A stretch of DNA of 64,000 nt, taken from the NCBI GenBank assembly GCA_958296015.1, contig CATQIH010000020.1, positions 1-64,000 of the forward strand. Direction: 5' to 3'. Shown here piece by piece: positions 38,445 to 43,900 of the stretch. The stretch comes from Cyclobacteriaceae bacterium. GTDB taxonomy: Bacteria > Bacteroidota > Bacteroidia > Cytophagales > Cyclobacteriaceae. The position numbers and the translations under genes were made by a program. Positions within the stretch are counted from its first letter, which is position 1; each line of letters opens with the position of its first letter. The notes beneath the pieces were generated by a model. That model was not told the origin of the DNA, made no database searches, and was given only the letters and a program-made list of their open reading frames with translations.

Positions 38445-40022
38445 CTATGATTTTACCTCAATATCTACTAGCAAATAGCCTTTAGCCAGCTTGGTGTACG
38501 CTCGTATCTGCTGGTCTATCCAGGTCTGATCGTATTCCAGGTACTCGGCCATCAGGGTGGCTACTTCCGGGGCGGCTTCTATGCTGGCGCGGGCGTTGAG
38601 CAACAGGGCACGGGTGCGGCGTGCCAGAAAGTCTTCTACCGTGCGGGCCATCTCATGCTCTACGGCCCATTTGATCTGCACTTTCAGGATAGGCAGGTCG
38701 GGGTGTAGCTTCTCGCCCAGGGCAATGTTTTTACTGATCATCTTACGGATAGCAATCATATCTGATCCATAAAAATGCAGCGGGTCTTTCCTGTCAACAT
38801 TCTTCAGCCAGCCATGAATGCGCAGGTCTTTGGTGCGGCTTTCTTTGTCTTCCAGTCCGGCAATAAGGGCTGCCTTATCTATGGTATCCTGCCCCATCTT
38901 GCGGTAGGTAGTCCACTTTCCACCGGTGATCGTCACCAAACCGGATACGGTCACCATCAGGGAGTGGCTTCGGGATATTTGGGAAGTGCTTTTGCCATTG
39001 CCCGTATCTACGAGCGGCCGCAAACCTGCAAAGACGCTGAGTACGTCTTCTTTCGTAGGGTCTTTGGTGAGATACTTGGCGGCATGTTCCAGAAGGAAAT
39101 CCACCTCTTCCTGCAAAGCTCTGGGTTCTAGCGATACTTTTTCTACAGGCGTATCGGTGGTGCCCACAATGGCCCGGTTGTTCCAGGGTACGACAAAAAG
39201 CACACGGCCATCCTCTGTTTTGGGCACCATGATGGCAGAATCGCCCGGCAGGAAATCTTTGTCCAGTACAATATGTACACCCTGGCTTGGCCTGACAACC
39301 TCCCGGGCTTCAGGATCATCCATCTTGAGCACACGGTCTACAAACACCCCGGTAGCATTCACCACCACCCGGCTGTTGATCCTGTACTCTTTGCCTGTTT
39401 CCAGGTCGCTGGCTACCACGCCACTCACCATGCCATCTACCTTCAGCAAGTCGCTTACAGGCATATAATTGACAATTGTGCCACCGGCATCCACACAAGT
39501 CTGGGCCAAGCTGACTGCCAGGCGGGCATCATCGAACTGCCCGTCGTAGTACATCACACCACCACGCAGGCCATCAGGTTCTACGGTAGGAATCAGTTCC
39601 AGCGTTTCTTCCCGCGACAGGCTTTTGGAAGGCGAAAGGCCCAGCTTGCCAGCAAGGATGTCGTATACTTTCATGCCTACTGTGTAGAAAGGGCCACCCC
39701 ACCAGTCGTAGGTAGGAATGACAAACGCCTGGTTGCGCACCAGGTGAGGAGCATTCTGGATCATCAGTCCCCGTTCGTGCAGTGCCTCTATGACCAGTGA
39801 TACATCGCCCTGTTGGAGGTAGCGCACGCCGCCATGTGCCAGCTTCGTGCTCCGGCTGGAGGTGCCTTTGGCAAAATCGGCCTGCTCCAGCAGCAAGGTA
39901 CTATACCCTCTGGAGGCTGACTCAATGGCTGTTCCCAACCCGGTAGCACCCCCTCCAATGACTACAACATCCCATACGGTGTCATAATCGGCAATGGTTT
40001 TTAGCATTAATTCTCTGTCCAT
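38445..40022 (-). CDS. glpD: Aerobic glycerol-3-phosphate dehydrogenase
   Basis: A 525-residue FAD-dependent, membrane-associated enzyme that oxidises glycerol 3-phosphate to dihydroxyacetone phosphate and feeds electrons to quinone. The FAD-binding motif VVIGGGATGLGTAIESASRG is near the N-terminus, followed by GTSSRSTKLAHGGVRYLQQ. The later VRPSQGVHIVLDKDFL and SGLVTITGGKWTTYRKMGQD are typical GlpD signatures, and the C-terminal helical domain is present. It is the last gene of a minus-strand operon and begins 3 nt after a TOPRIM-like gene that has no link to glycerol metabolism. Confidence 0.95.
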   Translation of the reverse strand: MDRELMLKTIADYDTVWDVVVIGGGATGLGTAIESASRGYSTLLLEQADFAKGTSSRSTKLAHGGVRYLQQGDVSLVIEALHERGLMIQNAPHLVRNQAFVIPTYDWWGGPFYTVGMKVYDILAGKLGLSPSKSLSREETLELIPTVEPDGLRGGVMYYDGQFDDARLAVSLAQTCVDAGGTIVNYMPVSDLLKVDGMVSGVVASDLETGKEYRINSRVVVNATGVFVDRVLKMDDPEAREVVRPSQGVHIVLDKDFLPGDSAIMVPKTEDGRVLFVVPWNNRAIVGTTDTPVEKVSLEPRALQEEVDFLLEHAAKYLTKDPTKEDVLSVFAGLRPLVDTGNGKSTSQISRSHSLMVTVSGLVTITGGKWTTYRKMGQDTIDKAALIAGLEDKESRTKDLRIHGWLKNVDRKDPLHFYGSDMIAIRKMISKNIALGEKLHPDLPILKVQIKWAVEHEMARTVEDFLARRTRALLLNARASIEAAPEVATLMAEYLEYDQTWIDQQIRAYTKLAKGYLLVDIEVKS

Positions 40023-40025
40023 ATC

Positions 40026-40661
40026 TTAAAAGATAGTTAGGGTTTTGGAAACTTCATTCTCTAGTTCCTGAAAAGCTGATAGATTTCTTAATAGAGAAAA
40101 GTCATTCATGTTTTCAGCTACCAGATGAACTGCCTGGTGAATATTTAGCTTTTCTAAATTCCTGCCTTTTAGTTTACTTGCTTTTTTTATTAAATCGTGG
40201 AGCAACTTTTTGGGATTACTCTCGCTTTCCAACTTCTTCAAACTAGGTAAACTTAGTTGTTCATCGCTATTAGGGTTACCAGACGCTGTTTTTATAGCCA
40301 ATTCATCTATTAACAACCAAGTTTCAGACATGCGTACGGGTACAACTCCTACTATCTGTTTGGTTGGAAGCTGACTTTTAACGCTTGACCAAACTTCTGC
40401 TATCTGCTTTCTTCTCTCTTCATAACTGTCATTTTCAGCATCTCTATGAATAAATAAGATATCGCATGGATAAAGGTCAATAGCGTGAATAATCTTATCT
40501 TCTAGCTTTTTAGGAGGTTTTCTAAGGCGGGAAAGACTTGCAAATTCTGCTTGTATTAAAATGTTAGGATAATGTTGTCTTAAGACCCAACTGATGATAG
40601 GTATTAATATTTCGTCAGATGATCCATCTGCTAATAAAGTATAACTAACTTCATTTTTCAT
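40026..40661 (-). CDS. Small TOPRIM/DUF4276-like protein, partner of the ATPase
   Basis: A 211-residue protein of the DUF4276 type. The N-terminus LLADGSSDEILIPIISWVL resembles TOPRIM motif 1 (usually EGxSD; here D12-G13, D16-E17). ILFIHRDAEND (69-78) supplies the D-x-D-like acidic cluster, and RMSETWLLIDELA matches the E-x-W-L-x-x-D block of DUF4276. TOPRIM proteins paired with AAA/OLD ATPases act as nucleases in defence modules such as AbiL-, PARIS- and Gabija-like systems. Here it starts 2 nt after the ATPase stop, so the two are made together. Nuclease activity is inference. Confidence 0.68.
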   Translation of the reverse strand: MKNEVSYTLLADGSSDEILIPIISWVLRQHYPNILIQAEFASLSRLRKPPKKLEDKIIHAIDLYPCDILFIHRDAENDSYEERRKQIAEVWSSVKSQLPTKQIVGVVPVRMSETWLLIDELAIKTASGNPNSDEQLSLPSLKKLESESNPKKLLHDLIKKASKLKGRNLEKLNIHQAVHLVAENMNDFSLLRNLSAFQELENEVSKTLTIF

Positions 40662-40663
40662 TC

Positions 40664-42154
40664 TTAAAATAGATATAACTGTCCTTTGACATCCTCCCGG
40701 TCAATAACTCTCTGTTGTTTTTTTCCATGATTGTTGGATGAAGCGGTATCTATATCTATTTCAACAGGATTTAAATAGGACAATAGAGTTCCCTTGGAGA
40801 CAGGTTTTATTTCATGATTAACTTTTGTGCGCCAAGTATTTGTTAATGGATTAAATACTGCTTTTTTAAATAAATTACCCATTTTATCTTTATCTTCTTT
40901 TAATTGTGCCATTAACAGGCTATTGTCTGGAACTTGTTGGACTACAGTGGGGGAATGGGTATTGATAATTACCTGGCGTAATGGATTATCTTCACTTATA
41001 GGTTGGGTTGTTTCTGTTGCTATGTCTTGCAATAGTTTTAGGATAGACTCGATTTTCTCTGGATGTATTCCGTTTTCAGGTTCTTCCAAACAGATAACGC
41101 CGCCTGATTTAGCGTCTAGTTCTAGTACTGCTAAGCCTAAAAACCTTAATGTGCCGTCAGATAACGCTCTTGCTGGTAGCAATGTGCTGTCTTTTGTACG
41201 AAGCATAAGTGTAAGTAATTCCCTTTTGTCATCCTTATCAACACTGATGTTATCAACTCCTTCTACCAACTCTGAAAGGCGATTGGCAAGCAACTGAAAA
41301 ACATTAGGCTTCTCTTTTTCTAAACTTAAGCGATACAAAGTAGCTGGTAAATGAGATCCGTCAGGACCTAATTTAGCATTGGTAATTACGTGAAATTCAT
41401 CAGATCTGCGGAGGGCTGTAGGTTCCAGTTGAAGCATTTGCCAGGATTGCATTTCGTTTTTCACAATTAGGGCTGTGGGATTTTCCAAAGCATTTGCTGT
41501 AGAAAGAACTGTTTTGGGTAACTGACTTGCTTTTCTACCCGTAGGCTTGCCGCTGCTACCTCCATCCTGATGAAAGTTAATCTTTCTATCTTCACCTTCA
41601 CCTGCGGTAGAAATGAACGGTATTGTAGTACTGCGTCTGCCTTGGATTACGGATTTTTTCCATTCTCTTTCCTTACTTTTCCCACTTGGATCAAAATGGT
41701 AGTTTATATCTCGATATGCTTCTCTCTGTGTTATAGGAGTGAGTTTTTCTTTTATAATTTCCAGTACGCCCTGGGTATGCAATTCGTTGTATTGCCTGTA
41801 AGCCAAAGCTAATTCATACTTTAGAGTTGTAATTGTTGCATTTGCGGTTTGCCCAAGATCATCTATTCCGGTTTTAGGTATAATCATTTGAACCTCAAAT
41901 GACATTTGTTCAGCGTACTGATCTCCCACTCTGTGGAACAGATCTCGGATATCTGAGTTCTTTTGCCCTTCACTACGAATTGACTTTGCTGCATCAATAA
42001 GTGTTTTATGTGTTAGATCGCTTAAGAAATGAATGGCATCAAAAAGATTGGATTTTCCTACGGCGTTGGTTCCTGCAATACAAGTAAAAGCACCAAAACA
42101 AATGTCAGTGTTGACTAAATTTTTAAACCCATTTATTTTCAACCTAGTGATCAT
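40664..42154 (-). CDS. AAA ATPase, OLD/RecF-like (AAA_21 type)
   Basis: A 496-residue ABC-type ATPase. It opens MITRLKINGFKNLVNTDICF, the usual start of OLD/RecF-like ATPases. Walker A is GTNAVGKS (28-35). After an insert of about 290 residues come the signature LSDGTLRFL (331-339), Walker B with ICLEEPENGIHP (354-365) and the H-loop NTHSP (398-402). The C-terminal 90 residues are specific to this group and carry no TOPRIM domain; that function is probably on the next gene. The DNA is visibly AT-richer than glpK and glpD (my samples: about 42 against 55 percent GC), a sign of transfer. Confidence 0.85.
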   Translation of the reverse strand: MITRLKINGFKNLVNTDICFGAFTCIAGTNAVGKSNLFDAIHFLSDLTHKTLIDAAKSIRSEGQKNSDIRDLFHRVGDQYAEQMSFEVQMIIPKTGIDDLGQTANATITTLKYELALAYRQYNELHTQGVLEIIKEKLTPITQREAYRDINYHFDPSGKSKEREWKKSVIQGRRSTTIPFISTAGEGEDRKINFHQDGGSSGKPTGRKASQLPKTVLSTANALENPTALIVKNEMQSWQMLQLEPTALRRSDEFHVITNAKLGPDGSHLPATLYRLSLEKEKPNVFQLLANRLSELVEGVDNISVDKDDKRELLTLMLRTKDSTLLPARALSDGTLRFLGLAVLELDAKSGGVICLEEPENGIHPEKIESILKLLQDIATETTQPISEDNPLRQVIINTHSPTVVQQVPDNSLLMAQLKEDKDKMGNLFKKAVFNPLTNTWRTKVNHEIKPVSKGTLLSYLNPVEIDIDTASSNNHGKKQQRVIDREDVKGQLYLF

Positions 42155-42207
42155 CGGTTATTATTTAAATGCTTATTAGGCAAAGTAGATGTTAATTTGA
42201 ACACAGC

Positions 42208-42215
42208 CAAATGTA
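42208..42215 (-). promoter_or_regulatory. Candidate internal promoter before the ATPase gene
   Basis: On the minus strand TACATTTG matches the -7 box TAnnTTTG exactly. It lies in the 66-nt gap between the glpK stop and the ATPase start, 54 nt before the start. No clear -33 box. If used, the cassette and glpD could be expressed without glpK. Confidence 0.35.
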
Positions 42216-42220
42216 ACTAG

Positions 42221-43711
42221 CTATTCCTCAATCCAGTGCTTTGATCTGCCAACGGCTTTATCCCAGTACCTGACCATTTCTTTACTGTTAAAGGCTGCAT
42301 CCGGTGAAAATGTTTTTTCCATCTGCCAGAGGTCTTCCAGTTCTTCTATACTTTTCCAGTAGCCTACGGCAAGGCCGGCCAGGTAAGCCGCACCCAGTGC
42401 TGTGGTTTCCATAATTTTCGGACGGATGGCTGGTATTTGCAGTAGGTTGGCCTGAAACTGCATCAGGGCATCGTTGGCAGAGGCACCACCGTCTACCCTG
42501 AGTTCTTGAAAGCCAATGTCTGTTTCGGAAGCCATAGCACGCAATACATCCAGTGCCTGGTAAGCAATGCTCTCAACGGCAGCTCGGGCAATATGTCCGG
42601 CAGTAGTGCCACGGGTGATACCAATGATAGTACCCCTTGCATACTGGTCCCAGTGGGGCGCACCCAGGCCGGTGAGGGCAGGCACCAGGTATATGCCGCC
42701 GTTGTCTTCCACCGTGCGGGCCAGCTTTTCTATATCGGTAGAAGACTGGATGATGCCCAGCCCGTCGCGGAGCCACTGCACAATGGCACCGGCAATGAAG
42801 ATGCTGCCTTCCAGTGCATACTGTGTGTTGCCGTTGATCTGCCAGGCAATGGTAGACAGCAGGTTGTGTTTGGACGTGACCACCTTCTCACCCGTATTGA
42901 GCATCACAAAGCTACCGGTGCCGTACGTATTTTTGATCATGCCGGAGCGGGTACACATTTGCCCGAAAAGAGCCGCCTGCTGGTCGCCAGCCATACCGGC
43001 AACGGGAATAGGAGTATCAAACATACCTTCGGCGGTATGGGCATATACCTCAGAAGATGATTTTACTTCTGGCAACACAGAGGCAGGAATATCAAGCATC
43101 TTGAGCAGGGTATCGTCCCAGCAAAGCCGGTGGATATCGTACAGCATGGTACGGCTGGCGTTGGTGACATCGGTGATATGTGTTGCCCCTTTGGTCAAGT
43201 TCCAGACGAGCCAGCTATCGATGGTGCCAAAAGCCAACTGGCCTTCTTCTGCCAACTGTCTGGCACCTTCCACATGGTCGAGTATCCATTTGATCTTGGT
43301 GCCTGAGAAGTAGGCATCGATGATCAGTCCGGTTTTTTGCTGTACCCTCCGAATATTTTCATCGTCCTTGAGCGAGTCGCATAGTGCCGACGTTCTTCTG
43401 TCCTGCCACACAATGGCATTGAATATAGGGCGACCGGTAGTTTTGTTCCACACCACGGTGGTTTCGCGCTGGTTGGTGATGCCTATGGCAGCTACCTGTT
43501 CGGAAGAAATGTTTGCCTTCTTGATGGCATCTTTGGCAACCTTATATTGCGTCTGCCAGATTTCGTCGGCATCATGCTCAACCCAGCCTGGCTTGGGATA
43601 ATACTGTTTGAACTCTTCCTGGCATAAAGCAAGGACATTGCCTTGGTGATCAAAAAGAATGGCACGGGAACTGGTGGTGCCCTGGTCTAAAGAAAGGATA
43701 TAGTTTTTCAT
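42221..43711 (-). CDS. glpK: Glycerol kinase
   Basis: A 496-residue FGGY-family kinase that phosphorylates glycerol to glycerol 3-phosphate, substrate of GlpD. The N-terminus [20 protein letters not shown] holds the first phosphate motif, and [40 protein letters not shown] and [13 protein letters not shown] are classic GlpK blocks. The ATG at 43711 begins the conserved motif; another ATG lies two codons upstream. It is first in an operon with the ATPase cassette and glpD. No glpF channel gene is present. Confidence 0.97.
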
Positions 43712-43900
43712 AATCAATGGAGAAATAGCACACTCGTTTCAGACTAATTGTATAGATTGGGCTGTAAACGAGTCAGGTTTGACGAGTTGTTTAGTTTAAA
43801 AATTAACTATTTTTGCTTCGGTTACGTAAAATGAAAAATTATATAGAGAATAAAAAGTATACACTATTTTATATATCTCTGCAAAACCTATTAAAAGCGA

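Follow-up and report, generated by a model that had tools for sequence, protein, structure and literature searches.

What is an ATPase gene, paired with a gene for a small TOPRIM-like protein, doing in the middle of a glycerol operon? In the stretch of Cyclobacteriaceae DNA analyzed here (64,000 nucleotides, hereafter the window), two genes, HecA and HecB, separate the glycerol kinase gene glpK from the glycerol-3-phosphate dehydrogenase gene glpD. The original prediction, made from the sequence alone, described them as a candidate defense-like cassette, and the four open reading frames were found with the positions and spacing that it gave: all lie on the minus strand, HecA and HecB are 2 nt apart and the flanking gaps are short (Table 1). 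We consider it probable that the pair reached this genome by horizontal transfer and serves, on its own and with two genes only, as an ATPase-nuclease immunity unit of the candidate type HEC-01.

Table 1 Coordinates of the cassette, its junctions and the other HEC-01 pairs of the same genome (window positions unless prefixed; C20 is the window's own contig, L039 and L195 are extracted loci).
Feature	Position	Strand	Description
HecA	40664..42154	-	496 aa SMC/Rad50-head (ABC-type) ATPase, HEC-01A-like
HecB	40026..40661	-	211 aa TOPRIM-like putative nuclease, HEC-01B-like
glpK (glycerol kinase)	42221..43717	-	Host gene 5' of cassette; FGGY kinase family match
glpD (glycerol-3-phosphate dehydrogenase)	38445..40022	-	Host gene 3' of cassette; DAO/DAO_C match
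glpK-HecA gap, 66 nt	42155..42220	-	Holds weak promoter-like TTTG-N20-TACTTTG
HecB stop to glpD start, 3 nt	40023..40025	-	Cassette/host gene junction
HecA C-terminal tail RVIDREDVKGQLYLF	40667..40711	-	Includes QLYLF, 40667-40681
Second HEC-01 pair	C20:394845-396904 (L039 6846-8905)		AT-rich
Third HEC-01 pair	C20:249139-250880 (L195 5140-6881)		366 + 213 aa, VEGDTEE motif

The pair had been thought to match no recognizable subtype, a view that comparison with defense models overturned. HecA matches the PADLOC model HEC-01A at 2.1e-93 (311.8 bits) and HecB matches HEC-01B at 1.3e-28; because both proteins match, the pair belongs, as judged by sequence models, to an already catalogued candidate type. 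HEC denotes an Hma-embedded candidate (PMC12988326, PMC10855318), and several HECs, HEC-06 among them, have been tested and their antiviral activity shown (PMC12988326). The portions of the literature that we searched contained no antiviral data or mechanism for HEC-01 itself, and searches for DUF4276, and for HEC-01 together with PADLOC, returned no papers.

HecA contains a Walker A motif at residues 28–36 (K34), the signature LSDGT at 331–335, the Walker B motif CLEEPENG at 355–362 and H400. Across 79 HecA sequences, residues G28, N30, G33, K34, S35 and N36, L331–G334, C355, E357–N361 and H400 are invariant. Pfam identifies AAA_21 and AAA_15, and the AlphaFold2 model (pLDDT 92.4) finds its best solved matches by VIA among SMC and Rad50 heads (4i99_A: Z 20.5, rmsd 3.7 over 296 residues). 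Foldseek matches include PtuA, retron ATPases, SMC and OLD, and the kin of HecA among defense proteins with solved structures are PtuA, retron ATPases, OLD and AriA.

TOPRIM domains carry an acidic residue after β1 and a DxD/E motif after β3 of a β-α-β sheet. The AlphaFold2 model of HecB (pLDDT 92.3) has this arrangement, with the order β1-α1-β2-α2-β3-α3-β4 followed by a helical C-terminal half: D12, in D12-G13-S14-S15-D16, follows β1, and D74-x-E76, in H72-R73-D74-A75-E76, follows β3, with E113 and W115 further along. The predicted topology and motif positions thus support the proposed TOPRIM-like nature of HecB. The first motif had been called weak for having D in place of E; the substitution is real, but it is the norm of the family, with D at position 12 in 71 of 80 sequences (window included) and E in nine; the reverse holds at position 76 (E in 71, D in nine). 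Residues L9, G13, H72, R73, D74, R83, M111, E113 and W115 are invariant in the same 80 sequences. Foldseek at E 0.001 returned no matches to solved TOPRIM proteins, and the best VIA match reached Z 9.0 (115 residues, 3.3 Å); among the 50 matches listed from each search are Argonaute, lumazine synthase and further proteins of Rossmann-like type, with no TOPRIM by description, an outcome still compatible with a TOPRIM fold. HecB itself scores 21.6 bits against the Pfam family DUF4276 (PF14103), below the gathering cut-off of 30.2, while a profile built for the HecB family gives an hhalign probability of 84.6% (E 6.8e-6) against DUF4276 proteins and 66 of the 80 family members match DUF4276 at E up to 0.01.

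To place the pair in a wider context, we scanned one genome per species and confirmed 232 relatives of HecB; the analysis below uses the best 80. Phylum labels were available for 74 of these and cover 14 named phyla, led by Bacteroidota (12) and Planctomycetota (11), with Cyanobacteriota, Chloroflexota, Acidobacteriota and Verrucomicrobiota at eight each. All 80 HecB sequences comprising the window and 79 relatives match the HEC-01B model PDLC04210. In every one of the best 80 relatives HecB is immediately preceded by HecA (gaps of −23 to +23 nt, with a 4-nt overlap in 34), and no neighboring family recurs in more than four of the 80 loci within four genes per side, so two genes seem to suffice. 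The relatives cluster by phylum, with exceptions: 28 changes of phylum label are required on a quick tree, against a minimum possible of 13 and a shuffled mean of 52.6. The row nearest the window is Rudanella (66% identity). At one locus (L110), whose metagenome bin bears the title Bordetella parapertussis, HecA falls together with two rows from Verrucomicrobiota (SH-aLRT 98), and the title looks like that of a misnamed bin. Another locus carries a second HecA-like ATPase stretch (L119:8959-10047, 26% identity) just downstream of its pair, which suggests tandem systems.

The genes around these relatives are varied. At 1e-10, PADLOC assigned 159 models to 133 of the 149 first neighbors (those of at least 110 aa, cut to 450 aa), compared with eight models for 133 genes sampled from 231 distant ones, a tally of models and not of proteins; each model listed near the pair matches at most three proteins. 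First neighbors matched 139 Pfam families, and the 25 listed, which do not classify all 133 first neighbors, have at most three members each and are largely housekeeping or metabolic, while including ResIII (three proteins), a DNA methylase (two) and AAA_21 (two). Because the listed families are mostly of this housekeeping or metabolic kind, a defense-island setting is unsupported, and the case for such a context among HEC-01 relatives is weak. Some relatives do sit in restriction operons, for example at L072, where an N6/N4 DNA methylase gene flanks the pair on one side and a ResIII gene on the other. Others adjoin genes for tryptophan synthase alpha, homocysteine S-methyltransferase, a class II tRNA synthetase or methylmalonyl-CoA mutase, and one pair (L106) is nested between a MeaB-type gene and the mutase, so that at both L106 and L072 the flanking genes are functionally linked to each other. 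HEC-01 pairs showed no preference for operons as nesting sites: with nesting defined by the same strand on both sides and gaps no larger than 100 nt upstream and 60 nt downstream, it occurs in 12 of 68 testable loci and in 17 of 94 tight gene pairs elsewhere in those loci, or 18% each.

Within the window, composition marks the middle two genes of the operon as foreign. In a sample of 43 long ORFs, hand-picked from the window's ORF list, HecA (GC 0.381, GC3 0.298) and HecB (GC 0.346, GC3 0.274) have the two lowest GC3 values, against means of 0.500 (sd 0.057) for GC3 and 0.464 (sd 0.035) for GC in the remaining 41. The flanking host genes, measured in the same way, have GC3 values of 0.537 (glpD) and 0.516 (glpK), which bears out the earlier impression that the pair is AT-richer than its neighbors.

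Relatives of the host agree with a foreign origin. A GlpK match was found in 44 of 58 related genomes, and 29 of these loci (L009–L037) were examined with flanks of about 1.5 kb for the opposite situation, namely the pair lying between glpK and glpD in all relatives; neither hecA nor hecB occurs in any of the 29. By reading of the listing, a glpD homologue adjoins glpK in 20 of the 29, although five of these have only 32–37% identity, and in a same-genus genome (G001) the spacing between glpK and glpD is 16 nt. HecB is present in two of 59 near genomes, including the window's own; the other copy (G044) has low GC relative to its neighbors and lies, as judged by eye, between genes read as topA and a cytochrome-assembly gene. 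Among 395 genomes drawn from the phylum, again including its own, five contain matches to the HecB profile, one of them only at 3.9e-4. With the pair absent from the relatives' glpK loci examined, glpK and glpD 16 nt apart in G001 and HecB patchy, the best reading of the arrangement is that the insertion in the glp operon is recent and local. Composition, patchiness and the relatives' loci together support the proposal that an ATPase and TOPRIM-like pair was acquired horizontally and came to lie inside this operon.

Two further HEC-01 pairs occur on the same contig, giving three divergent pairs in the genome. In the second, which also has low GC relative to its neighbors, HecA has no tail and matches the best HEC-01A model at 1–460 of 464, and the proteins show 31% and 26% identity to the window proteins in alignments. 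The third matches HEC-01A at 2e-136 and HEC-01B at 2.8e-75. It lies between genes read as an ABC-transporter ATPase and permease (L195:4372-9439, equal to C20:248371-253438), with gaps of 45 nt and at least 5 nt, the permease start being uncertain. This third pair is nested in an operon, the same habit as that of the window pair in the glp operon.

Expression of the cassette is probably by read-through from glpK, perhaps with an additional promoter of its own. The original prediction had placed a possible promoter in the gap before the ATPase gene, and a TTTG-N20-TACTTTG match does lie there (42181–42211), the sole match of this pattern in the window; however, 1.09 matches are expected by chance and the fuller pattern TTTG-N19-21-TANNTTTG has matches in the window only outside the gap, leaving a weak candidate. 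Sigma70-like sites (15 versus 9.2 expected, sd 2.9) and terminator-like sites (seven versus 6.0, sd 2.3) were also counted, and no terminator-like site lies on the minus strand within 40026–42154. Direct or inverted repeats at both cassette junctions did not exceed the shuffled expectation. No HecB relatives were found in phage records, 20 pattern matches in viral contigs yielded none that were confirmed, and one of 72,556 plasmid records has a relative (Kovacikia).

A feature not previously described is that HecA ends in a linker and a conserved tail that lie outside PADLOC's best HEC-01A model, which covers residues 1–412 (model positions 1–398 of 464). Predicted confidence drops to a pLDDT of 61–70 across the linker (461–480), rises to 93 at residues 481–490 and is 71 at 491–496. 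By a simple pattern, 67 of 81 HecA tails have an RVxDRxD-like or TV[AR]EN end, and the HEC-01 subfamily that carries this C-terminal extension appears to be a variant. The tail could have its role within HecA, because the RVIDRED part is confidently predicted within the HecA model. It may alternatively be a dock for HecB, a role against which the tailless HecA of the second pair in the same genome counts.

The end of the tail invites a more specific reading. The published consensus for binding the β sliding clamp is Q-phi-x-[LM]-[FL] or Q-phi-x-[LM]-x-[FL], where phi is L, I, V or A (PMC13254535, in the part consulted), and the window's QLYLF fits it exactly. This strict form occurs in only 11 of 81 tails, compared with 0.9 expected after shuffling and 0.2 from its rate in the rest of the proteins. 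A wider form of the published QxxL(x)F, Qxx[LIMF](x)[FL], occurs within the last 20 residues in all 12 members of the window's clade (SH-aLRT 86 in the quick tree), against 0.8 expected after shuffling each tail, and in 29 of the other 69 tails, against 4.0; the wider tail patterns were chosen after the tails were seen, and the shuffled expectations ignore shared ancestry. Tails from other phyla have the related form RVxDRxDLQ-xx-LP, and Q..LP-like forms, which on a clamp reading would be a variant resembling the MutL motif, are found in 25 of 69 (2.7 after shuffling). In the window's own genome, one Y-family polymerase has QISLF and MutL has QYSLSL; among its proteins screened with a permissive pattern, the first of the Y-family polymerases (QIRIL) and the stretch of DnaE present before the locus ends (QYSIL, QIQVL and QIRFGL) fit less well. 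The MutL proteins of other carriers mostly have QxLLxP-like forms such as QRLLMP, not QLxLF, and these are presumably clamp motifs. A motif of this kind is also described as the means by which the toxin SocB attaches to the clamp (PMC9690074, as far as consulted), and among the papers listed by our literature search none describes, by title or the start of the abstract, a sliding clamp-based anti-phage defense system. On this sequence likeness we tentatively suggest, as a possibility short of an even chance, that the HecA tail is a sliding-clamp hook, in which case this ATPase-nuclease subfamily would ride the host β clamp, where the sensor could watch, or the nuclease reach, replicating DNA. 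Because bacteria share the clamp, a single hook would keep the cassette functional when it moves from one phylum to another.

From these properties we infer a defense function. HecA would assemble as an SMC/Rad50-like ATPase that acts as sensor and restrainer of HecB, and HecB would be a metal-dependent TOPRIM-like nuclease, released or aimed upon phage sensing, whose cutting of nucleic acid, be it the DNA of phage or host or the tRNA of the host, would stop phage growth. The HecA tail would dock on a partner, in the window's clade plausibly the β sliding clamp, and so place the sensor at replicating DNA. Of the original reading as a defense-like cassette, the inserted ATPase and TOPRIM-like pair is supported, while the unrecognized subtype proves to be a catalogued candidate and the first motif, called weak, is normal for the family.

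The same parts could instead form a genome-maintenance pair, a Rad50/RecF-like ATPase with a nuclease working at replication forks, whose clamp-like tail would target post-replication gaps. The best structural alignments of HecA, which are with the heads of SMC and Rad50 and reach Z 20.5, the resemblance of its tail to clamp-binding motifs and the largely housekeeping character of the listed neighbor families all favor such a role, as does the proposed interaction of RecF with DnaN in the literature consulted in part. We nevertheless consider it unlikely, given how patchily HecB is distributed among the near genomes and across the phylum, the foreign composition of the pair and the presence of three divergent pairs in one genome. 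Also quite unlikely, in our estimation, is a selfish element of toxin-antitoxin type, in which a toxic HecB restrained by HecA would cause addiction and be expressed from host operons; a conserved ATPase of 496 aa that also carries a long insert and a conserved tail would exceed the needs of an antitoxin, and certain copies lie inside restriction operons, even though the compact, tightly spaced two-gene unit, the scattered insertion sites and the low GC of three pairs are what such an element would show. The co-directional genes and 3-nt coupling to glpD might point to a glycerol-operon accessory with a metabolic role tied to GlpK or GlpD, but the pair's absence from all 29 of the relatives' glpK loci examined, and the unrelated genes that its relatives adjoin, make this very improbable.

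The HEC-01 candidate type gains an anatomy from this analysis, consisting of invariant catalytic residues and a two-gene unit at scattered, solitary sites, sometimes in operons. Its conserved ATPase tail suggests a concrete partner, the β clamp, which makes the question of sensing testable. The analysis also shows defense-type cassettes beside ordinary metabolic genes, a setting that searches guided by defense islands would overlook.

Compared with known systems, the likeness first proposed to AbiL, PARIS and Gabija is borne out as far as a related ATPase, but their models match HecA weakly or as distant kin. AbiL, Gabija, OLD, retron Eco8 and Septu PtuA share an ATPase domain related to HecA, while their partners or fused nucleases differ from HecB, and HecA falls far below the NCBIfam cut-offs for retron Eco8 (41.9 of 250 bits) and PtuA (28.3 of 500). 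Gabija consists of a GajB helicase beside the fused ATPase-TOPRIM GajA; it was rejected, as HecA is paired with a 211-aa protein that matches no helicase family and Pfam finds no TOPRIM family in HecA. MAD3 of MADS is the best NCBIfam match of HecA (3.5e-45), at 154.9 bits against a cut-off of 420, and this assignment was likewise rejected; the genes immediately around HecA are HecB, glpK and glpD. Among clamp binders, the QLYLF of HecA fits the Q-phi-x-[LM]-[FL] form of Pol III, RecB, MutL and SocB, whereas most HecA tails do not. PARIS also has separate ATPase and Toprim genes, and HecA matches the AriA model at 7.4e-29 and AriA chains among solved structures at 7.3e-4. Its AriB is a DUF4435 protein, and a comparison with only four DUF4435 sequences showed no profile similarity to HecB (hhalign E 0.12). 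In PARIS, according to the part of the source consulted, AriA is described as a sensor that keeps the Toprim nuclease AriB sequestered and inactive; once a phage protein has been detected, AriB cleaves tRNA (PMC12409363). By analogy, HecA and HecB may work as sensor and effector in the same manner. With HEC-01 the agreement extends to both genes of the window, which match the A and B models, are adjacent and stand in the same order.
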